A DNA stretch of 64,000 bases from Tubiluchus corallicola. Lineage: Eukaryota > Priapulida > Priapulimorpha > Priapulimorphida > Tubiluchidae. A model generated the notes under the pieces. The model did no database searches. It was not told where the DNA came from and saw only the letters and a program-made list of their open reading frames with translations. Position numbers and translations under genes: made by a program. Below are positions 24,766 through 63,304 of the stretch, in pieces. The first letter of the stretch is position 1; each line of letters opens with the position of its first letter. The stretch covers positions 124,001 to 188,000 of the forward strand of contig JAQGDQ010000394.1 of NCBI GenBank assembly GCA_030141605.1. The letters are read 5' to 3'.

Positions 24766-24772
24766 CTAAAAA

Positions 24773-38200: not shown

Positions 38201-41200
38201 CTAGTTTGTCAAATAAATAAACTAAAACTTGTCGTCTAAATAGCACTGAAGTGACGAAATCAAGCAAACTGATACCAATTTTATGACGAAGGCAATAAAG
38301 TTCATACACAAGTTACAATAAACTTTGAAAACACATTAGTGAAGTTTCATACAAAAAAACCTACCAATCGCAAATAGTTGTGCAGTGTCCCGGTCGGTAT
38401 TAAGGTATCATAAGCCAGATTGTCTAACCGTCCGACGTCAAAGCCGTACAGGTACACAGCTATCAGATCGCTGTCCGTCTCTTGGAGTAATTCCCCGGGA
38501 CTTGCAGTCAACGGGTAGCCAACTTTCCAACGTTTTGTACCTATAATTGTAAAAAAGCAGCTCATAAATTTGCTCAGATACAGCAAAAGTTCATGATCTT
38601 TTTCATGCTATTCTGCCAAGGGTTAATGTAGGTGGTGTGGCAGGACCGGAGCATAACTTATTATAAGGGCTGAGATTAAATGAGTGATATGCGAAACCAC
38701 AAAGAACAATCTCTCTCACAGTTAACCCCATCCACTTACTAAACAATTCTGTTGTAGCTTAACTTTAGTCGCTGGGCACAAACCTTGACAACTGCACTAT
38801 CCCCTCAGCTATTTTAGGTAGAATGGTTTCTAATAAAAGTTTCAATCTTGTCTGGCAATTTCATGAAGTTTTGACAAAAAGTTACTAATTGTTAAAACTT
38901 TTAGATAATGACTTCATACAAAAACAAAGATAATTACTTTTCATGAATTTTAAACTTATTGATCTTTTAAAAGTGTTCATTCAGAATGACACGTTTCAGT
39001 TTTTGTCATTGCTAAACCGACTGCTAGTAAAAAATTTGGATGAATAGAAAAGATAATGGTGTAAAATGAATCACCGTATTCTTATAGCAAACTAATTAAT
39101 TTTCTGAATCTCATATGTAAGGCAAAATTTTTAACACTTCTCTACGATTTCTTCTAGTTACATTCACATTTATTTTGATAATTTAAATTCTAATCTGTTG
39201 ATTTGTAATGAGATTTTGTGCATGTGCATTTTAGTATCATCAGTGCATTAATTATTCCTGGATTTACGATATTGAAAATGACAGTAATAGTGGAAACGCT
39301 CAATAAACAAGTTGATTCCCAGAAGTTTGCTCTTTCATGTATTAAATAGTAATCAATTCATTATGACATTATGCAGCATAGACATTTCTACTTTGTAAAG
39401 AAGATTACCTTGGTAAGACGTGAAGATAACAGCAAATTCCACAGTGTAAATCCAGAAGTTGGCCGCATAACACACTACTCACCTATCGCACACTACTCAC
39501 CTATCACACACTACTCACCTATCACACACTACTCACCTATCGCACACTACTCACCTATCGCACACTCTTTTACACTTTCGAAAGTCAATCCCAGTGTCTC
39601 GTACTCTTGCTCCGCATCGGAACCTCCCTTGCTGGTTCGTCGAGTCTTCACCCCCTCCGATATCGCAGCAAAATGAGCTGCCACTAGATGTCTCAGGCTG
39701 TCCTCCAGCACCTGCCAAGTGGTGGCGCAGTTGATCATCACCGTACCAATGCTCACAGCCGTGTCCGACTTTCCTCCGCAGGCTGTTTCATCCAGTTCAA
39801 CTACCACCATGCACACTCGATCCTCATTGTTGACTAGGATAAACAACAAAAATTAATTTTAACAGACTGAAATTTAAATTCAATTCATTTATGCGACTGA
39901 ATTAGAAAAAAACAAGAAAGCCTACGGTATGACATTTCTACAATGTGAAAGTTCATTACTGACCTGAAAGCCTACAGTATGACATTTCTACAATGTGAAA
40001 GTTGATTACTGACCTGAAAGCCTACAGTATGACATTTCTACAATGTGAAAGTTCATTACTGACCTGAAAGCCTACGGTATGACATTTCTACAATCTGAAA
40101 GTTGATTACTGACCTGAAAGCCTACAGTATGACATTTCTACAATGTGAAAGTTGATTACTGACCTGAAAGCCTACGGTATGACATTTCTACAATCTGAAA
40201 GTTGATTACTGACCTGAAAGCCTACAGTATGACATTTCTACAATGTGAAAGTTGATTACTGACCTGAAAGCCTACAGTATGACATTTCTACAATGTGAAA
40301 GTTGATTACTAACATGAAAGCCTACAGTATGACATTTCTACAATGTGAAAGTTGATTACTGACCTGAAAGCCTACGGTATGATATTTCTACAATGTGAAA
40401 GTTGATTACTGACCTGAAAACCTACAGTATGACATTTCTACAATGTGAAAGTTGATTACTGACCTGAAAGCCTACAGTATGACATTTCTACAATGTGAAA
40501 GTTAATTACTAACATGAAAGCCTACAGTATGACATTTCTACAATGTGAAAGTTGATTACTGACCTGAAAGCCTACAGTATGACATTTCTACAATGTGAAA
40601 GTTGATTACTGACCTGAAAGCCTACAGTATGACATTTCTACAATGTGAAAGTTGATTACTGACCTGAAAGCCTACAGTATGACATTTCTACAATGTGAAA
40701 GTTGATTACTGACCTGAAAGCCTACAGTATGACATTTCTACAATGTGAAAGTTGATTACTGACCTGAAAGCCTACGGTATGACATTTCTACAATGTGAAA
40801 GTTGATTACTGACCTGAAAGCCTACAGTATGACATTTCTACAATGTGAAAGTTGATTACTAACCTGAAAGCCTACAGTATGACATTTCTACAATGTGAAA
40901 GTTGATTACTAACCTGAAAGCCTACGGTATGACATTTCTACAATGTGAAAGTTAATTACTAACATGAAAGCCTACGGTATGACATTTCTACAATGTGAAA
41001 GTTGATTACTAACATGAAAGCCTACGGTATGACATTTCTACAATGTGAAAGTTCATTACTGACCTGAAAGCCTACAGTATGACATTTCTACAATGTGAAA
41101 GTTGATTACTAACCTGAAAGCCTACAGTATGACATTTCTACAATGTGAAAGTTCATTACTGACCTGAAAGCCTACAGTATGACATTTCTACAATGTGAAA

Positions 41201-44200
41201 GTTGATTACTGACCTGAAAGCCTACAGTATGACATTTCTACAATGTGAAAGTTGATTACTAACCTGAAAGCCTACAGTATGACATTTCTACAATGTGAAA
41301 GTTCATTACTGACCTGAAAGCCTACAGTATGACATTTCTACAATGTGAAAGTTGATTACTGACCTGAAAGCCTACAGTATGACATTTCTACAATGTGAAA
41401 GTTGATTACTGACCTGAAAGCCTACAGTATGACATTTCTCCAATGTGAAAGTTGATTACTGACCTGAAAGCCTACAGTATGACATTTCTACAATGTGAAA
41501 GTTGATTACTGACCTGAAAGCCTACAGTATGACATTTCTACAATGTGAAAGTTGATTACTAACCTGAAAGCCTACGGTATGACATTTCTACAATGTGAAA
41601 GTTGATTATTGACCTGAAAGCCTACAGTATGACATTTCTACAATGTGAAAGTTGATTACTGACCTGAAAGCCTACAGTATGACATTTCTACAATGTGAAA
41701 GTTGATTACTGACCTGAAAGCCTACAGTATGACATTTCTACAATGTGAAAGTTGATTACTGACCTGAAAGCCTACAGTATGACATTTCTACAATGTGAAA
41801 GTTGATTACTGACCTGAAAGCCTACAGTATGACATTTCTACAATGTGAAAGTTGATTACAAACCTATACTATGCAGAATCTGTTTACAAGCCGAGGAAGC
41901 CACATCCACCGGTTTCTTCCCTTGTTTATCACGTGCAAGTAAACTAACAAGGCTATGAACATGAAGCACTTCCAAACATTCCTGTAAAATGAAACGATTA
42001 GATTTTAGATTCCAATTTTAATAAGTGATAACTGATTCCACTGATGGATCTGAACCCTATAGTAAAACATTTCAAAAATCATTTTGCTTTTTCATTGAGG
42101 TTGATTTTAACAACGATTACCCATTCTGGGATGAGAGTTGGAGGAAAAAGGGAGGTGATGAAAACTCTGGACTAATGAGGATTTGAAACCAAGACCTAGG
42201 ATTAGTACTCGGTTTCTCAGATCCCAGATTCAAATCCCGACTAGTCTACAATTTTCCAATGTCAGTATCATCAATGCCAATTCAATACCGACGCTGAGAG
42301 AGAAAACACATTTCTGAAATTAATGATGAAGGTAAGTGATGTGCAAGAGATCAAATGACACCTGCTTACAGAAGATAAGCACAGAAGAGGAGAAGTACCA
42401 CATTTTCACCTAAATAATATAACTAAATAGAGGTGCTTGGGATGCTTTTGCAACCATTTCCGGCAGCTGAGGGTTGATGATGTAATAACAGGCACTTGAT
42501 GGCAAACAAAGAAAAAACAAACAAAAAATAAACAAACAATAAACAAACACGAGTCGACTACAAAGAAACAACTGTACGAAAAAAACAAAAACTTGCTTAT
42601 GAAACAGCGGGTTCACGAAGAAGCAGTGCGGTTGAAAACTTGGAAAAGAAAAATTTCTTATTGGACCTCTACCAAAATATTCCAGAAACATTAAATGGAT
42701 AAACTCACCGGTGACTGTTGTAATGCAGCTGCATGCGTCAGTGTCTGACCCATCTCGTCCACTATGTCCGCCAGGGACGACGGCCCTTTGTCAGGTGAGT
42801 AACGAGTGGCAGGAGATTCCGACATTGATACAGATTTCGCTGATGCTTGCTTGTCCTGGGGCTTCCGGTACGGACTTCGGTATGGAATGAACCTACGCAT
42901 ACGTCATTAACAAATGAATCATTATCGGCAAAAACACATAACAAAATACAAGCAACAGTTTCACCAAGTGGTCAGGAAGTAAAAACGATGCTCAAAATCG
43001 ACACATACGTGACTTGACTCGAACCTCTGACCATGTTAATGAAAGCACGGGCATACCTATCCGGAGACTTCCGATTCCAGTGAGAAATAGGATTAAACGT
43101 TGACAGCAGTTTTGCTTGTTTAATGAGCAACTCTAAGCAGTCGGGATGATTCTCCTCTATGGAACAGTGCATGGCAGTGCAACCATTCTGAAATTAAATA
43201 AACAATTTTAAATTTTTATATCTTACATTCTCACAACTGCTACAAAATGACATTAAATTACAAGTTATATGAAAAAATATGCTGCTAAATACATACTAAA
43301 CATAAAGAGGTAAAAACCATCAAAAGTGAAGAAAACGTCACTGTGGAAAAGCTCAGTTTTTAGTATTACCTTAGAGTGAATGTATTGAATGAGGATTGTT
43401 TCAATCACATCGTATATTTTAATTTCAGTGGAATCTGAATAATAAATTAATCACATTGTATTTAGATGTAGATTCACAAGTCTTTGTCACTGTAGCGTGA
43501 ACAACAGATTTAAGTAATATCCTGCCATATATGAAAATTACCCTTTGCCACTGGTTAAAATAAAACATAAGTAACAATTAAAAGCTAACCACCATAGGTA
43601 ACAGCTGCTAGTTTTGCGATATGAATTCTTTACATTACATCATTACTGTTTACTTGCTGCTTTTCAAAGGTATCTCACATTACTGCTAGTTTTGTGATAT
43701 AAATTCCTTACATTACATCATTACTGGTTACTTCCCGTTTTTCAAAGGTATCCCACATTACTGCTAATTTTGTGATATAAATTCCTTACATTACATCATT
43801 ACTGTTTACTTGCTGTTTTTCAAAGATATCCTATATTGCTGACAGTTTCGTGATCTGAATTCCCTACATTATGGCATTAGTGTTTCTTTCCTGTTTTTGT
43901 ATGTTTAGCAAAACTCTCTTCAGACATCTTTATGGAAAAGATAAAAACTGCAATTTCGGGACAAGATTCGCAGTGTCACTAAATGAAAGCTTCCTGTAAT
44001 TAAAGTGACTTTTATTCTTTTCTTGAATTGTATATAATTTACATAAAAATAATTAAATACTTTTTTATCATAAAATTTTGCATCACAGTATAAAATGTTC
44101 TTGCACATTTAATTTCCGAACACCAATGATCATTCTATGGTTCTTGACAACATAAACTACATGCAGTCACCTACCTTGTCTCTGACAATGCACACAGCCG

Positions 44201-47200
44201 GTGCAGCGGACACTAGTAGCTTCACACAATCCACATGTCCAGCTGTGGATGCCAGGTGCAGCGCTGTTTTACCGTTTTGATCCTGTATTGTAGCGTCTGC
44301 TCCAGCATCAACGAGCAACCGAACGCACCTGAAAAAATCACAATGATGTGACTAAGGCCCGGGTCACACAGAGTTGGACATAAAGATTAAACCATAAGGA
44401 AAAAAAGTCGCCTTATGAGAAATGAACGTATGCTAAGCAATGGTCCCTGTCACACAGATACTCCATCTGTCTTCTTCAACCTAACACAGTTTACCCAGCG
44501 TAAGCTATCAGCTAAAATCCTCCTTACAAGCCATTTTGAGTACTTCATAAGTCACTTTATGGCAAAATGAATTTGGCCAATAATTTCGTTTACCATAAGG
44601 CATTTTTAGACAGCGCTATCGAGATAATTAGCTTATTTGCAGTATTTATAGTGTACAATTCATTTATATCATAAGAATTCATAACACTGATGTACTATGA
44701 GCATTAAAAAGCATTTTTAACCCACACATCTTATTTACGACTGCCATATTATTACAATATACGAATATGGTACATGTAGGAGGCAGCATACCAGCATATA
44801 TATATGAAACAATGTTGCAAATTATCCTCCACTTTGCTAAAAATGGGCCTAAAACAGAGTTCTAAACTTACACACAGTAAACCAAGTCTTTCTAGCATTT
44901 AACGTAATGAGCTGCTATTTTCTGTTATGAAAGACACAGCTTTTCATCGCCATTAAATCTTCACATTTTCTTCTAACAACACCGATCACATTGACCGTGC
45001 TGTAACTGAAACACGAAACTTACCTTTCATGTCCATAGAGGGCAGCAGCATGCAATGCCGTTGTACCAGTTGAAGTATAACAGTTAAGATTCGGTTCTTT
45101 CTCAAGCAGAAGTTGTAAAAAAGCTGTAAACAAACAAAGAAACAGATGGAAGTGACAGTAAACAACGCTTATTATAATAGAAGTAAAACAAACATCTTGA
45201 ACATTTCCCACACGAGTTTCAGTTCATCGTAGTGATGATGCTCTTTTAGCCAGCAAAATGCGTGAAGTTTTATTGTAGCAATTAAAAATAGTGCAAAAGT
45301 TAAGCAACGTCAAACCTGCAGGGTAAAGGAATGGGAACACTGCCAATACCACTACCACTACCACTACTATTACTACTGTTATTATTATTATTATAATTAT
45401 ACTGATAAAATTAATGTTGCAATGTATAAGAATAAATTATCATGAGGCAGCAAATGTCTAAACTGTGTTGTTAAGTAGCAACAAATGCAAATTGAATGAA
45501 ATGATTAAATTTTCTTTTAAGTAATACTGTAAATACTTCTTTGTTTTAACCAAATTAAGTTATTCTAAAACACATAAAAGCCTGCAAAATGTCCTCACAT
45601 TCAGCAAAACCCCAGACGGCCCGTAACCCACTGAGGGAGCTAACAGTACTCCTGCACACCTGCTGTATGCTTGATGGGTGGGCCCTTGTGTCATAATTTA
45701 TTAAAAAAAGTGTGCAATGTGAACCCATGTTTTAATACAAAACATAGAAAAAAACGGCCGTGAGCAAAACACTTTTCAAAAGCATACGTTTTAACACAAT
45801 TAATACTGGAAAAGTGTTTCTGATAATTGAATAATAGATTAAAATCTTAATTAACAGTGGGCGAGCCCAACTATTGATGACATCACAAATGAACGTAATT
45901 TCTAACAGCAAAAAAGTGACAGTGACAGTGAAAGTGACAGTGGAGGTGACAGTAAACAACGCTTATTATAATAGAAGTAAAACAAACGTCTTGAACATTT
46001 CCCACACGAGTTTCAGTTCATCATAGTGATGATGCTCTTTTAGCCAGCAAAATGCGTGAAGCTTTATTGTAGCAATTAAAAATAGTGCAAAAGTTAAGCA
46101 ACGTCAATCTAGCAGGGTAAAGGAATGGGAACACTCGAGTTCAATACTTGTGCTAAGTGGATTTAAAATGCCACACAGCCCATGGATGCATATTAGTTTA
46201 CTGAGGAATGTATGAATACCCACTGGGGCAGAGACACCTCCACTGAACCAGTGTCTCACTCTGAATGACAATGAGACATGTCCTGGTCCTGCCACTGCAG
46301 AAAATCATTAGAACACTTTATATTGTACTCACCGTCGTGACCTTTGCTAGCAGCTATGATAAGTGCAGTTGATTTATCATTTCCAAGTGCAACATCAACA
46401 TCTACAGTAGATTCATCTAACAGCGATTTTAGTTTATCAGTATCACCCATATCAGCAGCTAAACACAGAAAATGTTTTGTAAAGTCACCGAAAGATGGAG
46501 GTGAAAGAAACAAGATTGATGATAAAAACTTACTTCTGCAGACAACAGGAACAAAATTATAAGAAAATCATTTAAGCATTTCTTCTTCAGGAGGAAGGTA
46601 AATGTATTAGAGGGGTAATATCCCAAATTCACACAGACACACCAACAAGGAAAAGCAGAAAAAGAAAATAAATAAGTTCATATGAAGTCATTTTGCTTTT
46701 CTAAGACACATGAAACATACATCATCTTTCGATGTTTGTGAATGTGACTTTGGCCCAAGAAGCAATCAAGAAGAGAAGCTGATTGTCCGAGGATAAACTC
46801 TAGTTTTGGACAAAACCCCATCAAGGCGTAATGTGAACTGCCTTTTAAGTGACCACAATAATATTGATAATAATACCTAAACTCAATATTAGCAATAATA
46901 TTGCCAATACTGAATAACTGCAACATTACTGATCATCTACACTCAATACTGAAGTAGAAAATATGTTTCTGCAATACAGTGAGCTCAATGGTTCATGGTA
47001 CAAGCAAAATAAAATAAAAGGAATCTCTTTTTAGAAGTGACAGAAGATTGTTATCGATCTAGAAAACAAAAAGTAATGAAACTGATAACATCGTCAATAA
47101 CAGCCGCTGCAGAAATACTGGGAACGTAGAAAAATACATCAAAGTTAAACACAGCTTGGTCAGTTAACAGACAGATGACCACCATAAGTGCTGCATCTGA

Positions 47201-50200
47201 GCAATTTCGTCAGTCATATACAGTTTGTACGCAGTTTGAGAAAGGTGGCTTTGCAAAAATGGTATGTTCCTTTTCAATATTTTAAAGAATAGACTGCGTC
47301 TGGTTTTCCTTTACTAGGCAAGAGCTAAACTATATTAAGCAATCACTCACCAGTAAACAATAATTGTGTAAGTACAGTTGAGCTATTATCATCATCTACA
47401 CTAGGTGGACCACCTGTAATGATTAAACAATAAGTCACAGAAAGCAAATAAATTAACGAACAAATCATGCATACCAACACTGTAGAATAATCACATTTGT
47501 TAATTGATATCAAAGAACAATTGTGGTATTAAATTAATAAATGTAATAAGCTATATGTATAAATCATGTTTAATTAGTTTGCAATTGGTAGAGCATACTT
47601 TTAATATGCATTTTGGTAGAAAATACTTTTAATATGCATTTCTACAACGAATTAATATGCCATAACTGTGAATAAACATTTGCTAGATATTGCATAAGTT
47701 CCGAACTAATTCAGTTATTCACACTTACGAAATCTCTGTTTGCAAAGAAAATAAGTATCACAATTTGATGTGCCAAGTCAAAGGGAAGTGATTATACTGC
47801 TGCCATTTGAATTATAACAATTCCATAGAACTGTGATGACAAAACAGCATTTTCTGTGCATTTGGGAAAAACAATTAAAAGGTTTGATATGTCATTTGCT
47901 TAATTTCAAAAAGCTAGTTATTATTACACAGGATCTATGTACTATTTTTAATCACATGTCTGTTACACAATAATTCATGAGTAAACTAAAGGGAAAATGA
48001 TTTCTCTCTCTCTCAGTATTGGCACATCACAAACATTTTACCAATTATGTAGTATTAAAATTGCTTTTACTATTAAAATCGCATTTCAAATTAGCCAAGC
48101 AGAAAGCAGGCAGAGAATTTCAAATAAGCAAGGCATTTTTTTATCACAGAACAACTTAGCACAAAAGTTAAAAAAATGTATGTGAAGTGAAGTTTCAATT
48201 GTCAAACATATAATCACATTAACTAAACCTTGAAACTGTTGATTGCCAATGAGTGTGAAACTGTCTACTCCCTTTTCTCTTCATTAGTTACTGTTGTACC
48301 TTCTGCTGTTGTTCACTGTGGGTTCATTTTGACAAACATGTTCAAGAGAAACTTAGGGTGTCCATACAATAATGGGATTAGGAAACTTAAATGAAATTGC
48401 AATGCATCTCAGATGTGTGTAGATTTATCTTTTCCATATTTCATCCACATACAATGCAGGTGTTATTATCAATTGCTCACAAGAATTATGCAATCTGTGC
48501 TGATTGCAAATGACTCTGATGTGCGGGGCATACATCGAAATTTTCTTGTTTGTGGGCATCCTCCTCATTTGGTCTGGGTAGTTTTTGATACCTTTTTGTT
48601 GTTGCAGAGTTAGTAAAGATAGCATTTTTGTACAGTAGACTCATTGTATATATTTAGTAATTCATCTTTTTATTCTATTATAATTATGGTAATTTTAATG
48701 CTGAAATAAAAGGATTGAATTCAGTTTGAATTAATCAAAGTTAATTTAGATTAATAAACTTACTACAATTACAATATTACAATTAACAAACTAATCTCAT
48801 GATATAATGACTGTTTTCGTTCTCACATTGTTTAACATTGTAAATTTGCTAACAGGAAGTAGCCCATTGTCTTTAACGAGAGTTTCTCCAAAGCCTTGCT
48901 CATTAGAAGTTCTCTGCTGTACTTTATACCGAGTCCAGGCTTCACTAGTCAATAATGAGTCATTGTGCAAGCAACATTGTGAACAAAAACAGCAGGTGTT
49001 CAATTTGACAACATGCAACAAACCCCCAATGATTAGTGTAGCAGCTCTAATTTCATCAACTATAACAGCATCTGTGCTCTCAATACAAGCTCCGTTAATT
49101 ACATTCGTCTTAATTTTCAAATTCTTTATTAATGATGGCATAAAGCAAAAATGCCAAGTTTAGTCCATCATTAAATTGTCTATTCAATTGTTTCTACACA
49201 GTAATAATTAAAAAACAATAAATAAACAAGTCATGCACTAACAGTGGTAAACAACAAAGGCAAGTGAACAAAGAAAAGCATTCAGAAACACACAAATCAA
49301 CATCGGGACACAAAAGTGACTTTATGATGAAGGAAAAATGTCAAAACTAAAACAACTTTAATAAAGAGACTTTAGCAAATGTGAAAGCTAAAATTCCAGC
49401 AAGTTTTACCTAGGAAAAAATAAAAAGATAATGAGAAATTACTCATGCACATAGCAATTCAATTGAATCACATCTAGTGCAGCACGGTCATTCCATATCC
49501 ATGATTAGAGGAAAAATTTAAAAAAAATCGCTATGAAAAAAGTAGCACGTTTGGTCAGTATGTGTTTCTGAGAAAATGATAATTTAGCTTTCTTACTGCG
49601 ATGTTTTTATATATAAACATCAAGTTATTTTAGCAGTTTTTTCTGGAAATAATCCAACATATTAATAAAAATGTTCGAGGGCAACTATTTCTTTACTTTA
49701 TTTCTTTATTTTATTTCTTTACTAACTGACATAAAATAGGCAATCTTTTTCCGGTTCGAATGAAATCATTGTCGGTGCTTTCAAAAACTAATCAAAAATG
49801 TTACAAATTTCTTGCATAAGAGTACTTTCTTCCTATCAGTTGACAAAAAAAGGTAAAACTTGGCCATTTTTCAACAATGAACTCGTGACATTGCAACCTT
49901 TCCAAAAAAACTGTTAGTTAAAAATTAGTACCGTAACCACAAATGTTATTGTGTTAGTAACACATGACAAAGACGACCAGTTAGTGCTAATATTCATTTG
50001 TTAGTTGAAAAAAGGATTTTTGGTTAGAACAGTTTGCGAAACAGATAACGGGGCAGCTCAGACAGGAGACAGCCTTTTGTTTACCTGTAACCATGGATAC
50101 CAAAAGTTGCTGCAGGTCGGCTAACTCAGGGCCGAATATGTCGAGGTTGGCGCCATCACTGTCATCAGTGGCGCCATCACCCACCTGTGTAGACGCTTTC

Positions 50201-53200: not shown

Positions 53201-56200
53201 GCAACGTAAAGGAAGCAGCAGGAAATTGGCCAAAACATCTGGGCACATTCATCAATTTGGGATAAAAAGAATTACAAGATTAGATTACGTGGACTATAAT
53301 GAACCTCGTCCCACAAGCTCAGCATGTCGCAACCATGGCAACCTGACCGCAAGGATGCTGCAAGTATTACGTTCATTTGATCTGGTGTGAATAATACATG
53401 CATGTGGCAGAATCGCTGATTGACTTTCTCACATCTTGCTCATGAATACATAATAAGTGTGGAAACAGTCTTGTCATATCAACTGATTTTCAATACCTTA
53501 AAGCTCAATAATGAATAAATTACAACAACAGTATGAGAGATCTAAGGCGGGCTCTAGTGCGTGCTTGTTTAGTTACTACAATGGCTGGAAGTTATAGCAG
53601 ATTGCTTTTTGCCAATCTAGATGTACCATGCTGTTTAGGGCAGCAGGTCAGTTTGTCTAGTGACCAAACGGGACCAGTTAGCTTGGTGGTACCTGCCTCT
53701 TAAGAAACTAATTACAGTGTACAATAATCAAAAGAAACGAAAGGTTTTAATAATGAATGCACGAATGCATGTCTACTCATATACCAAGTTTTGCCCATGA
53801 TGCTATAAATATGCAAATATTAAAATTTTAAGGTTAAACTTGCAAGATAAAAGGAAATATCGACTGTGCCTGAATTTGAACCAGGAACCTATACATTACT
53901 AGCTAAACATCTTAGACAACCAAACTGCTGTTGTCGCAAAACAACTAATGCCAATTATATGTTAAAAGTTCAATAAACAACCTAATATTTTCTAATTTTA
54001 GTTTAGAAATTACAAATCGATTTGATTAACTTTATAATTAATTCAAAGCTTAGCATTTAATCAAGTTTCATTGCAATTTTTTCACATTTCCTTCATTTCA
54101 AGCTTCACATCTCACACTTGACACCCAAGTATTCATGTCATTATTAAATGATAATCTCACAATTATGATTTATAAATAATCAAGCATTACAAGAGTTTAT
54201 CTTTAACATGACATTTCAATGCTGTGCAAGTGTTTACCTTTATCATTACCTTTGCATTACGGCTTCAATTTACCAGTTTCTCATTAACAGACACTTACAA
54301 AGCTGTCAAAAGAATTAGGTGCTTATTTCAGAAATAAACGCAAAACTTTTAGACTATTAGTAAGACTTTTCTAATTCAGATTCATTAACGTAAGTGCCAG
54401 TCAGTTACAATAAACTTTGACAAACACTTTAACACCTGCATATTTTATACGATTGTAAATTTTATAATAGCCAAGTTATAAATGTTAAAAGAACGTTCTC
54501 ACTCTTTTGTCTGTGATTTGCACTCTCAGTGATGCATTATGCCATGGCAGGGCCCCTAGAGGCTTCAAGCTTCTTTTTCCCCTTCCACACAATTACAAAT
54601 GAAGCAATCAATGGAATAACAAAGAAAATAATATCATTTTATCAAACAATCTTTAATTACCATGAAGCAAACAATATAAAAACACAAGTACTATACTGTA
54701 ATGTTAAACCTAAACGTATGTATCCAGCTACTTAATACTCATTAATTTCTCAACAAACTGATCCAGATGATGAAATATGATTTTTTATTTCACACATAAA
54801 ACTAAAACATGGTCAGAAAAGCAATATTATCAATGAGCAAGTTTAGTTTGTGTGATGGGAGTGTAGGACCAAATGATCAAATTTAATTTCCACAGCACAG
54901 ACATTTCTACGCGTATTACTGTCAGCTTTTCATTTTTCAGAGAGGAAGAACTAAAACAGGCCCTACACTTTGTGGGTTCTCCAAGATTCAGCCTAGTCAC
55001 CCTGATGGATAACGTGACACTAGACACTCTCTATAGCACTTGTAGGACTAGTATGTCTAGAAAACTACGCTCCAAATTATTTTTATCAGCGACTGATTTT
55101 ATGACATTAACATAGGCGAGTAGATAAACTTGCATCTTAAACAAATTGCTTTTATACAAACCTTCATGTAATTTATTCATGCTTACTGGTCACTGGTCAT
55201 ATTCGTACCCTTTCATTGTAATTGTCTGGTGCATTTTTAACCTATTTTACATACTATGCTCTTTATTACTTTGTAATAAATGTTCACATCATGAAAATAT
55301 TATTATTATTATTAATAACTTTATATCTCTATCCCTGAATACTTGTTTCTAAGTGAACAGTAGGCAATAGAATACTTTTATAATACTGAAAAGTAAACTT
55401 AAGTTTACCAAAAAACCTCTTATTTCTTACAAATGTTCTGTTTTGCATATGATATAGAAAATTGTTTGTAACCTGCCCACTAATTCAGTTACAGAGTTTC
55501 AGCCCGAATGTAAAACTAGTTAGCTACGGTCGGTGTTAGTTACTAACCAAAACTAGTTAGTTATGGTCGGTGTTAGTTTCTAACCAAAACTAGTTATTAT
55601 ATGCATAGATAATTCATGTGCACTAATGGACTAACATGACCAGGGAAGCTGTCCCAGATTAATCTCCAATAAAGCAAAATTCTCAGACCAGCAGCACAGA
55701 GATCTAAGCCAATCTCGATCTCAATGCATCATAAACCAAGCCAGTTGTAGGATTATAATTGAGTCGCAATGATACGCCAGCAGCACGATGCAGCATTGTA
55801 CAGAGAGTAAAGATTTCATTAAATGATGCGGAGAAATTGATCCAAATAATATCACATTCATTAGTTGCGATGCCCAGGGAATCATGGGATGCGATTGCGA
55901 GCGGTAACCGTCGAGGAGCAATGTACTCTCCGGTGGCAATTAAAAATAGATTGTGCCGAGTAACAATAAAAATGTTATTGCACTTGTTCTAGATTGTGAA
56001 CATGAGGAAATACAGGTCCACAGTGGAGCAGGTTATGCTAGAATAGAGGCACATAATAGATTTCTACTGAGTAATAAAATTAATTGTTACTTCCTGTACA
56101 AAACGTAATAAAACATGGGTTGTTATGAATTCAAATTGAGTGATTGCAATGAATAAACCGACAGATTGAAATTAACCAAAGTGTGCAAGCTCAACTATAG

Positions 56201-59200
56201 GAAGAACTCAACATAGATGGGTGTAGCAAGACTGGAACTTATCCCAATAATAAGAATGATTCTCTAAGGCAGGACATTGGACCAAACTGCGACCAGTACC
56301 ATCAGTGTCCAGCCAGGTTTTGCTCGGACAAAGTAATGACCCATGTCAACAGTATAATAGATAAAAGCATCTTGGAATAGGCAATGAGCCTAGCAGACGC
56401 ATCCAATCACTGACCATGCTCTGCATTGCTTAACTTTGTTTGCAGTACCCACTTAGTCATTTTCCCTAAGTAATGGTGGTCATCTGTAGGATCACTGACC
56501 AGGCTCTGCACTGCTTAACTTTGTTTGCTAACCACCTGCAGTACTACTCAGGTGTTTTGCCTAATAATGAAATGAGTTAATGATGAATAGTTTCAAACAG
56601 CTCTGCTTGACAGTAAATTCTACGTAGTGAATAGCTAACCTTACTAAATCATTCTGCCACAAACAAATATTGGAAAATTTGTAGGAATGTAACAACCCGC
56701 ACCCGAATGTAGAGACATTGTTCGTGTGTCTATTTGCCTATCAATTTGGTATTTTGGGCAATGTGATAATCACAGAATATAGTTTGAAAGCTGCAGGAAT
56801 ATTACACTCAAACGTTTTGAACTGGTCCTGGGAAATATCACAAATTGCACTGAGATAATGTGATCTTGAGAAGGTTTCCAGATTGTCATTTTCATCAAAT
56901 TTATTTAGATGTTGAAATGTATCTTAGTGGCATTACTTAATTGATCTTTTGCTCTTTCCTACACATACATCACTATCGATAAACTCTTATTTTGTTCCAA
57001 ATGTTTATTGATAACTCTGTCCGAAATATGGTTCTGGTTTATATTAATGTCATTAACGTTACAGTAATTTATGTAATAAAGCTTTATATCATCTTCTATA
57101 ATTAAGGGCTAAAAGTTGAAACGTTAGACTAATAAAGATGTTCACAATGTCTTTCTACATTTGGATGAGCACTGGATAGTTGAGTCTTGTGTCTAAAATC
57201 TTTTCTAAGCTTTTGTATCAGAAATAGCAAAAAAAACTTAAACTTCTACAGAAAAACTGCATATCTACAGTCAGTAGCTGCCAGGCAAATTAGGCAATAC
57301 GCATAAAAATCTCTAGGGCAGTAGATATTACACATTATTAATTATTAACCAGTGACATTAACACATGGATAATGACCCAAATACTGCAACCTGATTAAAC
57401 AATGAAATTCCCATGTTATCAAATTACATCACGGTCATTCACACAAAACCGAACTATTATAATAGTTGTAACGCTATGACCAGCCCAAATGCAATTACGA
57501 CACCGTGTCAAGTTTCAAATGTTGGCGATGGGAAAGGGAGGAGGGGGAGGGTGGGTCAGTAATAAGATATAATGCAAATTGAAAAGCTTAGTTCCAATTT
57601 AATCTATTTCTAACACAAAACCTGTACATGTATGTGCTTGTCCATTAAGAAACATATAAAAAACCTTACAAATGTGATTGACTAATTAATTACATCTGTG
57701 TTTTTTCCAATTTTAAACTTCTTAATCAATGATGAGATTTTCAACAGCTTCAACTGCTGGAATTTTAGAAGTCAGGCTTATGGGAAATGGGAAAAGTCTG
57801 GTAATGAACAGCATGGTTTTGAACCAGGGACTTTGAGATGAATAATACACACCTCGACTCGTAAGCGCTCCCTGTCTTTCTCTAGCATGTATGTGACATC
57901 ATCACCTTGCGCAGTGTCTTGTGCATGCTTCTTTTTCTCTTCTTCTAATTCATTCACAACCTGCAGGAGATAAAAGTCTGGTTAGGCCGGCCACATTTGT
58001 TCCTGTCTTACCTCATGAGCTCAAAAAATGTCGTGAATGTTTAGAGCTAAATTGTGGAATATTTAAAACTGGTTGAAACCAAAGTTTGTTTATTTCCCAC
58101 TGGTTAGCAGCAACGTTTTTAATTTTTTTCAACGCACATTTTTTTCACGCTTTGTTTTTTAGTTTCTCATCACTCAAACGATTTGGCATCCATTATCGAT
58201 GCAACAAAAATCACAGACGGATTCACAAATGTTTTTAATGAAGAATTCTTTTTCTATGCTTTCTTGCAAAACAAATATTTTAAAACCATCACAGGTTTCT
58301 TTCTCTGTGTTTATATGAGCAACATGGCACACCTTGAAATGTGAGATTGTAGAAGAGCCCTAATAAAAATACAAAAAGTGACCTCCCATAACCAACATCA
58401 CCGCCATGCAAGCCCCATTAACCGTTACATTGAAAAGAAAAAGTATACACATAAATAATGCTAAAAACATCCATGAATCAGCCTATGATTTTTGGTATAC
58501 TGAATACTTTGAAAAGTATTTTTGATAAGCAAACTGGTAAAACCAATCTGTAGTGCATGACTGAATGTAGGTGTGGCTTCATACAACTTTACTGGAAAAG
58601 AAGCCATAGAAGCTTGCAACATGTACGGACTCTTGATCATGAATATGAAATACTGTGGCTTCCTTCATACACACTTTCTTGACAATACATTCTTTATTGT
58701 GACCTTGATAACTCAAAGCAGTTGTTCAATTACATGACTAGTTCAATATACAAAGAAGCCTGTCTCGTACCTTTGAATGTCGCTTCTCCGCTGCATGCAG
58801 ATGCTCTTTCATCCTCCGATGAGCTTGTTTCTGTTGGGAGATGAGTGCTTCTAGTTGCTGAAGCTGATTTTCATACATCTGCTTGATCTGGCTTTCATCA
58901 AAGCTTGCATCAGGACTGGTTGTGGAGTCTCGGATTAATGCAGCGTACGGGTCATCCAAACCAAACTTCCCGTACTTTGCTTGATATAGCAAAGATTTAG
59001 CCTTTTCTGACTGAAATGTGAATGAACAGGATCAATACAAATGAGAAGTTGTTTCAGAATTTCATAAGAGAGTTATTTTGTAAATCCACAATGTGACAAG
59101 TCACATAAGAGACGAGCTTTTTACTCGAAATTTCTTGAATGGCAAAACTAACTAACAGAATCAAAGTCTTGGGTTCAAAACCAACATATTTCATGATTTC

Positions 59201-60651
59201 TTAGCCTTCTTAGTTTTAATTTAAACTGCTAAAAATTATTTGCTAATCAATGACAGACTGTGTTTTATAAACAATATTTCAGAAGTTACAGGATTTAAAC
59301 TGCAATGTTAACTTGGCGGGTCACTTTTACAAGAACCTTTTTCTTCTCATGCAATTTTGCAATTCATCATTAGATATAAGTTAATTACAACGTAACTTAT
59401 ACATTAGAAAATAATGGCAAGACTTTGTGCACCAAGCCTTAATAGAGCGAGCTCTAAATCCTACAACATTAGAACTATAATGTAATTAAGTGACCCATTG
59501 AAATAAAAAGAGATTCACGAAGACCATGTTTTTATTTTAAAACAGTGTTGGCACATCACCTGGCATAACTAACCTGCAACATTGCTGTCATTTTCCAACT
59601 AAGAAACATTTCAAAATAACACGACTTGCTAACAGTCAAAGCTAAAACAACTTTGCAACCGGTTCAGTTAATATTTAAGTTTTCTGGCTGACAATGCATT
59701 TTATTTTAAATTAGAAAAATTCTCAGAAAAAACGTTAATGGATCACATAAATACAACTGAAACTCCATGATTCTGTTAAGTACAAATGTAAATAAGCACT
59801 GATCAGGGCCGTCTTAACAACATTATGGGCCTCCAAGTAAAGCAGTGTACTGGGGCTTCTATCTGCACAATTACTCACAAGAATAAAAATGTTAATGGTC
59901 GATAAAATTAAACATATATTTATTGTGTTGCTACTTTCAGAAAAATCAGTGTTTAAACTGTTTAAACATTAAAAACATGCTGTACAGAAAAGATTAATCA
60001 ACAAAAACCGTTTCATTAATGCCAATGTCCACTTTTAACACAATGACAAATATTTATAGTTTAGTATAGCATAGTATTTATTAATTGGCAGCAAGCGTCA
60101 CAACATGCATAGATTACCATAGTGCCCTTACGCTTGTGGAACACCTGTCCAGCAAGACACACAACACACATAGATTAGCATAGGGCCCCTATGCTCGTGC
60201 GGCCTCCAGGCTAATGCCCAGTTTGCGCATATGTTAAGACGACACTGATAAAGGAAGGGTAGCTGACTCGACCCACTTAACCACTGCCTTCTTTTACTTT
60301 TGTGTAAACTTTACAAGTTTAATCAATTGCATTCTTTATGTAAATATGCTTAGAAGAGATCAATAAACATATCTATATCTATTTTTATATCTATGTTTAT
60401 TCCACTATCAAACAGTCCACATGGCGGGCAGTCTGAGATTCTGAGTCAGTGGTTTTAGGTGACTCAATGTTAAGATGCAAAAACAATAAAAGTTTACACT
60501 GCAATTTCCGTGCGACTGATTTTACGATTCTGGAAAGATGAAGAATATAAGTGTTTACCCGTAGCGTTGCTATGACAACTTCGCGTGCTTGTAGCTCACC
60601 CTCTAGGTAGCTCAGGAGTTGAAGTAGTTCCGTTTTTGAAAGCTCAAGCAT
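29154..60651 (-). CDS. CTTNBP2: Cortactin-binding protein 2-like gene, 19 coding exons, 1,381 aa
   Basis: All 19 exons have GT-AG borders and join in phase to a 4,146-nt coding sequence. Order: CortBP2 N-terminal coiled coil (residues 1 to about 260), Pro/Ser/Thr/Val-rich disordered linker with a PPVPPNKP motif (about 260-560), ankyrin repeats (about 577-850), a conserved central domain, then an NTPase-like region with Walker A GPSGVGKS (1014-1021) and Walker-B-like VIILDD (1082-1087), and a C-terminal tail. In vertebrates CTTNBP2 is a cytoskeletal/synaptic scaffold binding cortactin and striatin/PP2A; the same role here is inferred. The vertebrate protein is longer (about 1,660 aa), mainly in the linker and tail. 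ATG 60651 is chosen because MLELSKTELLQLLSYLEGEL aligns with the start of CTTNBP2NL and has A at -3. The exon's upstream part is then 5' UTR. Confidence 0.88.
29295..30081. mobile_element. Tc1/mariner-like non-autonomous element (MITE) in intron 18
   Basis: Ends are imperfect inverted repeats: CAGGAAGTCCTTGCTTAATG at the left, and CAATAAGTCTTCACTTAACG on the minus strand at the right. Each is flanked by TA, the usual target duplication of this group. No transposase remains. It contains three 37-bp repeats. Confidence 0.6.
29777..29895 (+). repeat. 37-bp tandem repeat, three copies, inside the MITE
   Basis: Unit begins GTGGTCAGCAATGAATC and ends GGCCTTTGACT. Copies differ at a few bases. Confidence 0.8.
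30340..30499 (-). CDS. CTTNBP2: CTTNBP2-like exon 18
   Basis: Acceptor TTTTTCTGTGAAG| (chosen over CAG 10 bp further in because only this keeps frame), donor CCCCAA|GTATGT, phase 1 to 2. Encodes DKDRYIGSYRGGQELQQHL and a disordered Ser/Pro tail. Confidence 0.78.
30735..30822 (+). repeat. 45-bp direct duplication in intron 17
   Basis: GAAGAACAGAATTTTGTAGT through AAGGGTATGGC occurs twice in succession, the second copy running into the tRNA-like sequence. Confidence 0.8.
30815..30890 (+). repeat. tRNA-Thr(TGT)-like pseudogene or SINE head
   Basis: GCGTCTTGTAAATAGAAGGTCGACAGTTCAAATCTACAC matches the anticodon arm to T arm of animal tRNA-Thr, with TGT at 30850-30852 in a CTTGTAA loop and a B box (AGTTCAAATC). 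The anticodon and T stems do not pair, and no acceptor stem forms, so it is not a working tRNA. Confidence 0.5.
31229..31533 (-). CDS. CTTNBP2: CTTNBP2-like exon 17
   Basis: Acceptor ACATTTCAG|, donor GGCGCAG|GTATGA, phase 2 to 1, 101 codons. Encodes AVEWVFSVWQRLNECLAKLG, FGPRHFYSCP and WNHAIAPAVENAIL, closely resembling the vertebrate C-terminal domain. Confidence 0.92.
31673..31735 (+). repeat. Dispersed repeat shared with type III array units
   Basis: ACGATCGTTTCAACAGC...GTCATTCTCAATGCTATAAA matches the type III spacer (near 1728, 13044 and 17989). A more diverged copy is at about 32930-32995. Confidence 0.6.
31991..32347 (+). repeat. 25-bp minisatellite, about 14 copies, intron 16
   Basis: Unit ATTATGTATATTCATCAGTTTTGCT with CATCAG/TGTCTG/CAACAG variants. 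As 25 is one more than a multiple of 3, a stop-free unit gives open frames in several frames. They are artefacts, not genes. Confidence 0.95.
32617..32848 (-). CDS. CTTNBP2: CTTNBP2-like exon 16
   Basis: Acceptor TTTTCATGTAG|, donor GTACAG|GTGCGT, phase 1 to 2. Encodes YIIGTMDKSRSQSLDLSIQQ then RFRWVHCRIDTEPV, a highly conserved stretch of the family that follows the NTPase strands. Confidence 0.9.
34075..34230 (-). CDS. CTTNBP2: CTTNBP2-like exon 15 (Walker B)
   Basis: Acceptor TATTTTACAG|, donor AAAATAG|GTTTGC, phase 1 to 1. Encodes NHAPVIILDDLSKIDVSEVF, a Walker-B-like hydrophobic strand ending in two acidic residues. Confidence 0.9.
35759..35945 (-). CDS. CTTNBP2: CTTNBP2-like exon 14 (Walker A)
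   Basis: Acceptor GATGTTTTAG|, donor GCCAAGG|GTAAGA, phase 0 to 1. Encodes IDQYRSLVFYGPSGVGKSYL, an intact Walker A (G-x4-GKS) directly after a beta-strand-like LVFY, then a helix and a TYVSLSSS strand. Confidence 0.92.
36022..36490. mobile_element. hAT-like MITE in intron 13
   Basis: Terminal inverted repeats CAGTGGCGGCTC (left) and CAGTGGTGGCTCGTAGC (minus strand at right), both near AGCAGC/GCTGC motifs. The interior is AT-rich with no transposase. The 8-bp flanks (CTAAGAAT and CTTGAAGA) agree only partly. Confidence 0.6.
38365..38540 (-). CDS. CTTNBP2: CTTNBP2-like exon 13
   Basis: Acceptor ACAATTATAG|, donor CGATTG|GTAGGT, phase 1 to 0. Encodes GTKRWKVGYPLTASPGELLQ and ...GTLHNYLRL, the lead-in to the P-loop exon and similar to the vertebrate LQNYLRL segment as I remember it. 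Confidence 0.85.
39471..39560 (-). repeat. 18-bp tandem repeat duplicating the exon 12 splice donor, five copies
   Basis: In sense orientation the unit is GTGAGTAGTGTGCGATAG: a perfect GTGAGT donor at the start and AG at the end. The unit copies the last bases of exon 12 (GTGTGCGATAG) plus the first of the intron. Confidence 0.93.
39555..39833 (-). CDS. CTTNBP2: CTTNBP2-like exon 12
   Basis: Acceptor TTTATCCTAG|, donor GCGATAG|GTGAGT, phase 1 to 1, 93 residues after the ankyrins (VNNEDRVCMVVVELDETACG..., WQVLEDSLRHLVAAHF). The donor is repeated five times at 18-bp spacing, and only the exon-proximal copy avoids an in-frame TAG. Confidence 0.88.
39916..41863 (-). repeat. 50-bp minisatellite, about 39 copies, filling intron 11
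   Basis: Sense unit GTCAGTAATCAACTTTCACA ... GTAGGCTTTCAG: it starts with a donor-like GTCAGT and ends with an acceptor-like CTTTCAG. The first copy (GTTTGTAATCAACTTTC) begins at the first base of the intron, so it contains the real donor. Only about 80 bp at the acceptor end of the 2,030-bp intron are not repeat. Confidence 0.97.
41864..41981 (-). CDS. CTTNBP2: CTTNBP2-like exon 11 (last ankyrin repeat)
   Basis: Acceptor CATTTTACAG|, donor AGTATAG|GTTTGT, phase 0 to 1. Encodes ECLEVLHVHSLVSLL and DKQGKKPVDVAS, completing the split repeat. The donor is the first base of a 2-kb minisatellite. Confidence 0.9.
42709..42892 (-). CDS. CTTNBP2: CTTNBP2-like exon 10
   Basis: Acceptor GTATGCGTAG|, donor TCACCG|GTGAGT, phase 2 to 0. 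A Ser/Pro/Lys-rich insert (FIPYRSPYRKPQDK...) within the ankyrin domain, followed by GQTLTHAAALQQSP, the start of another ankyrin repeat. Confidence 0.85.
43057..43187 (-). CDS. CTTNBP2: CTTNBP2-like exon 9 (ankyrin)
   Basis: Acceptor TTTAATTTCAG|, donor GATAG|GTATGC, phase 0 to 2. Encodes NGCTAMHCSIEENHPDCLEL and the start of a non-ankyrin insert (HWNRKSPD). Confidence 0.9.
43607..43910 (+). repeat. 78-bp tandem repeat, nearly four copies, intron 8
   Basis: Unit from GCTAGTTTTGTGATATAAAT to CACATTACT. The first three are well conserved and the fourth is diverged. Confidence 0.85.
44175..44328 (-). CDS. CTTNBP2: CTTNBP2-like exon 8 (ankyrin)
   Basis: Acceptor TGATTTTTTCAG|, donor GACAAG|GTAGGT, phase 2 to 0. 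Encodes CVRLLVDAGADATIQDQNGK and TALHLASTAGHVDCVKLLV, near-consensus ankyrin repeats. Confidence 0.93.
45024..45123 (-). CDS. CTTNBP2: CTTNBP2-like exon 7 (ankyrin)
   Basis: Acceptor TTGTTTACAG|, donor GAAAG|GTAAGT, phase 1 to phase 2. Encodes FLQLLLEKEPNLNCYTSTG and TTALHAAALYGHE, a standard ankyrin core. Confidence 0.92.
45152..45341 (+). repeat. 190-bp direct repeat in intron 6, copy A
   Basis: GTGACAGTAAACAACGCTTA ... GGAATGGGAACACT. A copy differing at only a few positions lies at 45946-46135. A (ACT)n/(TTA)n microsatellite follows at 45351-45400. Confidence 0.9.
45946..46135 (+). repeat. 190-bp direct repeat in intron 6, copy B
   Basis: Partner of 45152-45341, same orientation, about 600 bp apart, preceded by a GTGACA-rich short repeat (45913-45945). 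Confidence 0.9.
46333..46458 (-). CDS. CTTNBP2: CTTNBP2-like exon 6 (ankyrin)
   Basis: Acceptor TGTGTTTAG|, donor CACGACG|GTGAGT, 126 bp, phase 1. Encodes AADMGDTDKLKSLLDES and NDKSTALIIAASKGHD: the first ankyrin helices and the start of the second repeat. Confidence 0.9.
47351..47413 (-). CDS. CTTNBP2: CTTNBP2-like exon 5
   Basis: Acceptor TCATTACAG|, donor TTACTG|GTGAGT, 63 bp, phase 1 at both ends. Acidic linker (GGPPSVDDDSSTVLTQLLFT) leading into the first ankyrin repeat. Confidence 0.8.
50085..51321 (-). CDS. CTTNBP2: CTTNBP2-like exon 4 (large exon)
   Basis: Acceptor ATTCTTTAG|, donor GTTACAG|GTAAAC, 412 codons plus one base. First about 120 residues continue the coiled coil (heptad-rich, VAVLLVQERKELSQRL, family-conserved). 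The rest is Pro/Val/Ser/Thr-rich with PPVPPNKPVL, a likely SH3-type ligand, and ends in an acidic DDSDGANLDIFGPELADLQQLL segment. More GC-rich than its flanks, as expected for coding sequence here. Confidence 0.92.
51981..52314 (+). repeat. 31-bp minisatellite, about 11 copies, intron 3
   Basis: Unit GATTGGGATTCGGTTTCGAT TTCGAAGCTCA, with TTCGAA palindromes and a GGTTTCGG variant. CpG-rich relative to surroundings. Open in all plus frames only because of the period. Confidence 0.95.
53880..53950 (-). repeat. tRNA-derived SINE-like relic
   Basis: Minus strand reads GCAGTTTGGTTGTCTAAGAT...TTAGCTAGTAATG...CTGGTTCAAATTCAGGCAC, with A-box-like and B-box (GGTTCAAATTC) elements at tRNA spacing. Confidence 0.4.
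56406..56545 (-). repeat. Two tandem 5S-like relics
   Basis: ATCACTGACCAGGCTCTGCA-CTGCTTAACTTTG occurs twice about 85 bp apart. It matches the reverse complement of the 5S internal control region and of the relic at 26550. Confidence 0.4.
57853..57960 (-). CDS. CTTNBP2: CTTNBP2-like exon 3
   Basis: Acceptor TATCTCCTGCAG|, donor GTCGAG|GTGTGT, 36 codons, phase 0. Highly charged coiled coil (VVNELEEEKKKHAQDTAQ...). A tRNA-like B box (GGTTCAAAACC) lies just beyond its donor. Confidence 0.88.
58771..59010 (-). CDS. CTTNBP2: CTTNBP2-like exon 2
   Basis: Acceptor ACATTTCAG|, donor CAAAG|GTACGA, phase 0 at both ends, 80 codons. Contains KYGKFGLDDPYAALIRD, equivalent to the (R/K)YG-(F/Y)---DP--AL-RD motif of the family, then the start of the coiled coil (QLEALISQQKQAHRRMKEH). 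Confidence 0.9.
59804..60247. mobile_element. hAT-like MITE in intron 1
   Basis: Inverted ends CAGGGCCGTCTTAACA (left) and CAGTGTCGTCTTAACA (minus strand, right). GGGCC-rich subterminal repeats, no coding capacity, and no clear 8-bp target duplication. Confidence 0.6.
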
Positions 60652-60663
60652 CTTGGGATGCCT
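60559..60663 (-). CDS. CTTNBP2: CTTNBP2-like exon 1 (coding from 60651)
   Basis: Acceptor CTATTACAG| at 60664, so at least one non-coding exon lies upstream. Donor CTACGG|GTAAAC. Codes residues 1-31, with the LSK-EL--LL--LEGEL-AR--VI-LR motif of CortBP2 proteins. The frame is open through the 12 bases before the ATG, so a coding upstream exon is not excluded. Confidence 0.85.
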
Positions 60664-61796
60664 CTGTAATAGAAAAATGACTTTATCTTATAATAAACGT
60701 CTTCATATAGATAGATCCATTGTGCGACACACATATGTGCATTAAAAAAACTCTTTCAAATTTCATGTTTTTTTAACAAAATGCTTTGCAAACTGAAATA
60801 TCATATTCAGTTTTTCTATTTTCTTTTACCTTTTTTAGTTTTCACCGAATCCAAAATGCTGAATGCAGACAGAATGAAAATTTGATCAAGAAACAAAAAT
60901 TGAACGCACATTTTTTTAACTTTTCAGAGTCTGTTATGTTTGTTATTGTAACAACGACGGCCAGGCTTCTGGTTGCTAATAAGATTATAGATCATAAGTA
61001 AAACGAATATCACTGATTATTTGGAAGAAAGTTCAGCTTGTCTAAATTTACCAATCTACAAAAATTTTTACTGCAAAAATAAATAGTAGAGGTATAAAAA
61101 AGTTTAAAAAGTAAACTAAAAGCAAAAGATCTTATGTCAACAAAAACAATTGTTGATAGTTAATATATACATATAAACATAAATATCAAGCTATAAGCAT
61201 CATTCAGCCAATTCCTTTACGCAGAAGCAATTTTAAACGAATTAAAAAACAGAGTTTGCAAAAAAATGTTAACTATTCCTCAATACAGTTTATGTCTATG
61301 ATATGTTTACGCCTACACGAAGGTGTTATAAATAATTCAGAAAAACAACCCCTATATCAGTAAATAAATGAAAACCAGTTTAAAATGCTGATAAGCCTGT
61401 AAATATAGGTCCAACAGACCTTGACATTTCAACAGCATGTAACAGCTGACACACAAGATCATGTAGAAAGTTTTTTACATTGACTTGTCAATTGTCATAA
61501 TGCTCAGCTACATTGACGGAATAAAAAAATGAAAGGGAGGCAGTATTTATAAATAAGCGCCAAAAAGATATGAAGCTAATTAGGACAAGCTGGGAAGAAG
61601 CTGTGATTATTCATCTAAGCAACGCTTGGATGAGTCAGATGCTTGAAACACAGATGCTGAGCTCAGTAGGTTAACAAATTCACTAGCAGTGAAGATAATT
61701 TGCAGCTTAGCAATTCAAATCAACATTAAAGCTTTTAATCACATTTTTCATTATCAGGATAAATTTATGGGACTTGATATATTTAAATAAATACAG

Positions 61797-62526
61797 GTGT
61801 TAAAGGTTCACCTAACAATACATTGTGTTAAAGGTTCACCTAACAATACATTGTGTTAAACGTTCACCTAACAATACATTGTGTTAAAGGTTCACCTAAC
61901 AATACATTGTGTTAAAGGTTCACCTAACAATACATTGTGTTAAAGGTTCACCTAACAATACATTGTGTTAAAGGTTCACCTAACAATATATTGTGTTAAA
62001 GGTTCACCTAACAATACATGGTGTTAAAGATTCACCTAACAATACATTGTGTTAAAGGTTCACCTAACAATACAAGGTGTTAAAGGTTCACCTAAAATTA
62101 CAAGGTGTTAAAGATTCACCTAACAATACACTGTGTTAAAGGTTCACCTAACAATACATTGTGTTAAAGGTTCACCTAACAATACATTGTGTTAAAGGTT
62201 CACCTAACAATACATTGTGTTAAAGGTTCACCTAACAATACATTGTGATAAAGATTCACCTAACAATACATTGTGTTAAAGATTCACCTAACAATATATT
62301 GTGTTAAAGGTTCACCTAACAATACATGGTGTTAAAGATTCACCTAACAATACATTGTGTTAAAGGTTCACCTAACAATACAAGGTGTTAAAGGTTCACC
62401 TAACAATACAAGGTGTTAAAGATTCACATAACAATACACTGTGTTAAAGGTTCACCTAACAATACATTGTGTTAAAGGTTCACCTAACAATACACTGTGT
62501 TAAAGGTTCACCTAATAATACATTGT
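61797..62526 (-). repeat. 28-bp minisatellite, about 26 copies
   Basis: Sense (minus) unit GTGAACCTTTAACACAATGT ATTGTTAG, again GT...AG. Short higher-order repetition is visible (AAGGTGTT and ATGGTGTT variants recur in the same order). The copy nearest 62535 begins GTAAGTTTACAATGTATTATTAG. Confidence 0.95.
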
Positions 62527-63304
62527 AAACTTACTTCAGTAGAATCAGAACAAAATTTTTAAAACCTAGTTAAGTTTATACTACAAATATAAATTATAAT
62601 GAAATCATACAGCAAAATTATATAAAAGCCTAGTGCATGAAATTTTAAAACCGTCTAAGTTAAGGCTAGGCGAGTCGAGTTTTGTTAGAAGTAGCAATAT
62701 ATGTTTCAGCACTCATTAGCTAGCAATGTATCTTAAAACTAATTCATTAATTGGCATAGTTGCCCCAGAAGAAAAGAAGACTTTGTTCAAATCTAAACTG
62801 AGTCACAAGACAGGCTTTCCACAGATTACAATCTACTTCAGTTCGAAGCTGTTATAAATGTAACGTTTATAAGCTCAAGGAATTTATAAAAATTCAGCAC
62901 ATACCTACTTAGTCATAAGAACCTTACTAAAGCACACAAATAAGTTTTTAAAATGTGTACGGACAACCATAATTAATAATAATCAATTTAACAGTAAATT
63001 GAAGAAGACAAAAACATACAAAGTACAATGGAGACCATAAAAGAACAAGTTAAGTTTAAGTTATTTATTTCTCCAAAGCACATAGCAAGTAAAAATAAGA
63101 GCTTAATGGCTTAAAATGATACACAGAAAAATTAAGCTTGAACCCTTAAAACAAAAAATAAATTATGACAATTTGAAATACCACAATATACAAATTACAG
63201 AAATTAGACCTATAGGCTTACAAAAAAAATAGCAGCATTCTGTTTTAATTAAGCAGTTGATGAAATACAGCTCATTCTGTATTAAATTAAGTCACATGAG
63301 GTGA

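Follow-up and report, generated by a model that had tools for sequence, protein, structure and literature searches.

Minisatellite-like tandem repeats lying over exon-intron boundaries, called mirages, have been described in amphioxus Adh3 (units of 10-72 bp), troponin C and globins, with imperfect examples in PGBD5 (passages of PMC3087553 and PMC3902484). According to the same passages many of them carry AG/GT signals, they are unstable in length, regular splicing is reported to be undisturbed, and it has been suggested that new introns could arise from them. A related idea is the Rogers duplication model of intron gain, for which potato RdRp and ATP2A1 are the cases described in the relevant part of PMC4974935. 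This work concerns three tandem arrays in a CTTNBP2-like (CortBP2) gene of the priapulid Tubiluchus corallicola. The gene lies in a 64-kb stretch (contig C34, positions 124001-188000; the window) of a 343.5-Mb assembly. We believe these arrays are probably recurrent exon-boundary minisatellites, like the amphioxus mirages, which lengthen introns that already exist. The exon-boundary arrays are a real and recurrent feature and are best classed as mirage-type minisatellites.

The arrays resemble the mirages, as far as those passages describe them, in being tandem repeats that span boundaries (clearly so for the 18-bp array), in carrying AG/GT signals and in occurring in several genes of one genome. 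There are differences as well. The passages on globins have mirages at both 5' and 3' boundaries, whereas the arrays that straddle a boundary here are all at donors, although our pattern searches selected a donor motif. Mirages come with reverse transcription PCR and length-polymorphism data in those passages, whereas the Tubiluchus arrays are known from the sequence of one assembly alone. Copy number also differs, since one Tubiluchus array reaches 39 copies. Intronic minisatellites and variable number tandem repeats in general are head-to-tail units with near-identical copies. The arrays here fit that description (copies of the longest differ by 3.2% on average in pairwise comparison), but unlike such repeats in general they are anchored at donors, and those that straddle a boundary contain exon bases. 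In the literature searched, which omits most subscription journals, we came across no mirages reported from animals other than amphioxus, and a literature search on intronic tandem repeats gave no paper.

The gene is on the minus strand, as are all features given for it below, and it is identified by Pfam matches to CortBP2 (PF09727; E 1.3e-20 and 4.8e-11) and by ankyrin exons. Three of its exons matter most here (41981-41864, 39833-39555 and 38540-38365). They give one open frame when joined, and both introns between them, numbered 11 and 12 as in the original prediction, are GT-AG introns in phase 1. The first of these exons has a CAG acceptor and a GT donor and ends in ...ACKQILHSI, while the last starts with GTKRWKVGYPLT. 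The predicted intron 11 (39834-41863; 2030 bp, GTTTGT...TAG) and intron 12 (38541-39554; 1014 bp, GTGAGT...TAG) are supported by the reading frame and the splice signals.

The clearest case is the 18-bp array at the donor of intron 12 (39471-39566, 5.3 copies), detected with Tandem Repeats Finder (TRF) like the other two arrays. It straddles the donor at 39554, taking in 12 exon bases and 84 intron bases. Its unit, AGTGTGCGATAG followed by GTGAGT, is the last 12 bases of the exon plus the first six of the intron. The exon tail AGTGTGCGATAG matches the same part of the next copy at 12 of 12 bases, which supports duplication of the exon boundary itself. The original prediction had both this array and the one in intron 11 begin at the first base of the intron; that is right for intron 11, but the 18-bp array starts 12 bp inside the exon.

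Intron 11 is almost entirely filled by the 50-bp array (unit AGGTCAGTAATCAACTTTCACATTGTAGAAATGTCATACTGTAGGCTTTC). TRF places it at 39916-41859 with 38.9 copies, and analysis of the units extends it to 39916-41863 with 39. It runs from the first base of the intron to 82 bp before the acceptor, covering 1948 of 2030 bp or 96%. In register, its first copy opens with the final AG of the exon and has no further exon bases in common with it, so that the intron accounts for 48 of the 50 unit bases there. The exon-adjacent donor is GTTTGT, while the inner donors are GTCAGT (28), GTTAGT (9) and GTCAAT (1). The third array, with a 28-bp unit (AGGTGAACCTTTAACACAATGTATTGTT) in 26.4 copies, is in the 5' region (TRF, 61790-62526); the first coding exon found (60560-60665, a Pfam CortBP2 match with ends read by eye) lies 1124 bp downstream. 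The array was predicted to start at a strong GTAAGT. Such a motif is present (62529-62534) and reads as a possible donor of a putative exon of the 5' untranslated region, but the array begins 8 bp after its first base. With the exon only putative, our claim gains nothing from this third case and loses nothing by it.

The feature that first drew attention to these arrays was that their sense-strand units begin with GT and end with AG, like tiny introns. TRF confirms all three arrays, and the units do read this way after rotation, with AGGT in register in 35/39 units of the 50-bp array, 24/25 complete units of the 28-bp array and 5/5 complete units of the 18-bp array. All three carry AG/GT signals, and the dozens of decoys that were predicted are present inside them. 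We do not regard the GT...AG form as a separate fact, however. A unit that contains an AG/GT junction must end in AG when it is rotated to start with GT, and no mini-intron is needed to explain it. What can test this is a donor preceded by exon bases other than AG, and an unselected survey supplied one. Pfam exon hits served to choose the 36 regions of this survey (17 myosin, 138.3 kb; 19 kinesin, 115.6 kb), which have GC contents of 32-41%. TRF gave 99 rows in these 253,936 bp, from which 50 arrays were kept (period of at least 9, with microsatellite-like and overlapping rows dropped). One of them, in a myosin gene (locus L014; 36 bp, 9.9 copies), straddles the donor of a myosin-head exon (E 1.4e-18) that reads ...GAGACAATG followed by GTAAGT, the exon ending in ATG. 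It repeats 26 exon bases, 22 of them identical, and its unit is not GT...AG.

The survey also shows what minisatellites look like away from donors. Setting aside the one array over a donor, 49 survey arrays remain, and AGGT occurs in the units of 6 of them where shuffling predicts 6.00, so AG/GT is not a general property of minisatellites in this genome. An earlier count of 4/44 (4.24 expected) left out the straddling array, three units longer than 100 bp, a single 57-bp unit and one of the pair of 72-bp arrays; AGGT is present in two of the long units omitted then, and these are included in the count of 49. The original prediction had asked whether the AG/GT content of intronic minisatellites exceeds chance, and in arrays not straddling donors it matches chance.

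The prediction that the pattern is repeated is borne out by other genes, with HSP60, Fz, dynein, MROH and myosin arrays among the examples. It recurs in at least seven single-locus donor-octamer arrays and in one survey array. We searched for arrays of AGGTRAGT and of AGGTGAGT, taking the first 100 places among the matches listed for each (reaching contigs C38 and C480), and likewise the first 100 places for the reversed octamer (reaching C2145). Among the matches listed, flanks could be read for 11 single-locus AGGTRAGT arrays, and 7 of these begin precisely at the donor of an exon that is open and looks coding. These seven arrays repeat 7-40 exon bases, with 13 identical at the dynein locus. 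Four of the seven exons have homology at E of 1e-4 or better: HSP60 (E 2.9e-21), an Fz domain (E 1.3e-11), dynein heavy chain (E 2.9e-8) and an MROH HEAT exon on C338 (E 7.7e-5, which is below Pfam's own cut-off). The others are a PDCL3-like exon whose only hit has E 5.7, an exon on C353 in an unnamed open reading frame with no Pfam hit, and an exon that we take to resemble a sulfotransferase weakly (E 0.25), its best hit being a pentatricopeptide protein (E 7.7e-4). On C195 a Kunitz-like exon (E 0.0022) ends 45 bp before the start of a 15-bp array, which was counted as not straddling, and no exon was seen by eye at the arrays on C30, C161 and C232. The count of flanks leaves out the window itself, C36 (tetranucleotide-like), C480 (5' flank not reached) and the members of dispersed families (C17, C26, C38; C29:36685, C48, C100).

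The explanation we favor is simple. A short segment at an exon-intron junction would be duplicated in tandem through slippage, unequal exchange or repair. Splicing would keep to the first donor, the one next to the exon, so the extra copies would be intronic, the protein would be unchanged and the array could grow downstream. Growth anchored at the donor in this way may account for the 96% of intron 11 that is repeat. Where an exon ends in AG before the GT, every copy would carry AG/GT and would read GT...AG once rotated. We infer the duplication mechanism, the use of the first donor and the neutrality of the copies; the positions of the arrays, the exon bases in the 18-bp repeat and the recurrence at other genes can be read directly. 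Were the next donor used instead, an in-frame stop or a frameshift would result at 7 of the 10 sites considered (both donors in the window, the seven loci above and myosin), with a stop at the PDCL3-like exon; the exceptions are the Fz, C338 and C353 arrays. This fits use of the first donor.

Several observations weigh against this explanation. Of the 42 survey arrays with an exon hit on both sides, only one straddles a donor. The 50-bp array has just two bases (AG) in common with its exon, too few to show that it straddles the donor, and the 28-bp array is not tied to any known exon. The Fz array is open for one unit before a stop is reached. The arrays on C338 (L050, 39-bp unit) and C353 (L047, 27-bp unit) stay in frame until the examined pieces end (110 and 88 codons), and these two boundary arrays may be coding repeats.

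The most serious alternative is that there is no preference for donors. These would be ordinary minisatellites placed at random, some of which fall on donors as donors are common. We give this an even chance. It is important to realize that it concerns frequency and is compatible with the exon-boundary explanation. The octamer is itself enriched at real donors, where at most about 37% of its occurrences lie (its surplus relative to the reversed form sets the bound at 0.367; 11176 single octamers against 7069 reversed), so the 7 of 11 straddling arrays exceed expectation only mildly (P=0.06). When three AGGTGAGT are required at spacings of 16-46 bp, there are 469 matches against 108 for the reversed octamer, and the AGGTRAGT pattern gives 1944 against 235. 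These apparent 4-fold and 8-fold enrichments are misleading because raw matches count copies and because the AGGTRAGT set includes a dispersed satellite. Counted as arrays on contigs C1-C480, AGGTGAGT leads the reversed octamer by 13 to 4, which is not significant given the abundance of the octamer (P=0.15, or 0.19 without the array in the window). A pattern of three GTAAGT was useless as a test, the rows listed being mostly GTAA microsatellites plus one 33-bp array (19441 matches against 18738 reversed).

The position of survey arrays along introns bears on the same question. It was assessed with the Kolmogorov-Smirnov (KS) test on the 42 arrays, for which exon hit ends are approximate and the introns include some with missed exons. 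The donor offsets of three arrays were set by eye (the exact values are 0, 20 and 29 bp, with 19 used for the second). The test took one 75-bp row as a 25-bp unit (9 copies) and one 105-bp row as a 26-bp unit. No survey array reaches the downstream exon hit, and no acceptor is overlapped by any of the five nearest arrays, which were read. Three arrays lie within 30 bp on the donor side and one does so on the acceptor side, where 0.8 would be expected on either. Relative position is uniform for all 42 (P=0.83), as the absence of any preference would have it, and for the 32 with fewer than five copies (P=0.47). Against that view, arrays with at least five copies lie near donors (n=10, mean relative position 0.24, P=0.016; P=0.006 in the set with n=9). 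The threshold of five copies was set once the data had been seen, and the clustering weakens to P=0.026 when related arrays are merged (n=8) and to P=0.095 when the straddling array is also dropped (n=7). The original prediction had looked to a phase preference of intronic arrays relative to donors; intronic arrays as a whole do not have one, but the highly expanded ones may, post hoc and to the extent just given.

We treat this donor-side clustering of highly expanded arrays as one new lead, open and weak. The stronger claim would be that 5' splice sites are preferred points at which minisatellites nucleate or expand, low-copy arrays being spread evenly along introns while those of at least five copies lie near donors. 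We find this unlikely. Were it so, co-transcriptional structures or nicks might promote slippage there, or splicing at the first donor might shield arrays anchored at donors from selection, and donor-anchored expansion would be a main and continuing source of intron length.

These searches turned up several other repeats. The 3' end of the MROH-like 39-bp array (L058, C338:42960-43260) runs, as read by eye, into inverted copies of its unit. A dispersed satellite with the unit AGGTAAGTCAAATGTAGACACAGGAAAGTTCAAATGTGACTT occurs at C17:50586-56310, C26:84268 and C38:20001-65143, with similar sequence in locus L042 (2048-2216). On C17 and C38 it is present as pairs in inverted orientation, separated by about 5-6 kb, which recalls the termini of a fold-back type element. 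Another dispersed satellite, AGGTGAGTCAGTGGTGCACACTGGGA, has a 26-bp unit and is found at C29:36685, C48:60779 and C100:42789, where the 5' flank has no visible coding exon. In the survey, the same 72-bp satellite (TAAAGGAAAGGACAAGTCA...) occurs in a myosin intron (L016, 3280-4853) and a kinesin intron (L032, 3879-4296, both in sense coordinates), about 100 bp and about 60 bp after the exon respectively.

Another alternative gives the arrays a function. Recursive splice sites are zero-length exons, and the arrays could be tandem sites of this kind, or decoys that regulate splicing of this gene. The case for it is that most 50-bp units keep AG/GT and that 38/39 of them end in GGCTTTC ahead of the next AG; GGCTTTC-AG/GT is what we take to be a plausible ratchet-type site, and AG/GT after CTTTC is indeed where the likeness to recursive sites lies. 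However, the sites are spaced 50 bp apart, unlike recursive splice sites, and are read here from sequence only. The AGGT columns of the 50-bp array hold 4 of 37 variants against 3.0 expected, which gives no sign of selection on AGGT, while those of the 28-bp array hold slightly fewer than expected (1/26 against 3.7). Units also differ between genes. We regard this alternative as very unlikely.

The original prediction referred to intron gain, in which an AGGT-bearing exon segment is duplicated in tandem and the array supplies both the donor and the acceptor of a new intron, as in the Rogers model. The units do carry AG/GT, and multi-copy AGGT duplications with introns across copies have been described for fission yeast (as cited in the part of PMC4974935 that treats the model). 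The tandem duplication of AGGT-containing sequence is common to that account and to ours. The difference is that in the model, as described there, the copies supply both ends of the new intron, whereas here the unit carries an existing donor and the array does not reach the acceptor. In introns 11 and 12 the acceptor is 82 and 930 bp beyond the array, respectively, within sequence absent from the TRF list of repeats, so in neither intron do both ends come from duplicated copies and intron gain is unsupported. In the 50-bp array, moreover, nearly all of the unit is intronic at the first copy. We consider intron gain very improbable for these arrays. A repeated route to intron growth by AGGT duplication is therefore half right: lengthening stands, with intron 11 nearly all array and the pattern recurring elsewhere, but intron gain does not, since the acceptors are outside. 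The arrays lengthen introns; creation of introns is not shown.

Insertion at donors of mobile introner-like units, or of units from a dispersed satellite, is scarcely credible, for although two dispersed families with AGGTAAGT or AGGTGAGT units occur in this genome, exon bases form part of the 18-bp repeat, and the 18-bp, 50-bp and 28-bp units were each found in the assembly only at their own locus rather than as near-identical copies at many sites (a missed match does not prove absence).

The window holds other features away from the arrays. Positions 1-18000 contain several similar copies of a transposon-like open reading frame of about 330 amino acids with no significant Pfam match, and a possible BED-finger frame is at 16668-17306 (E 0.06). 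A 399-amino-acid frame with about nine C2H2 zinc fingers is at 24770-25969.

What remains is an exon-boundary minisatellite that offers a simple route to longer introns with the protein unchanged, provided that the first donor stays in use. It explains how a repeat can come to resemble a string of tiny introns, and it means that AG/GT within a minisatellite is by itself no evidence of intron birth. If the clustering of large arrays at donors holds genome-wide, then splice donors would be hotspots for tandem repeats.

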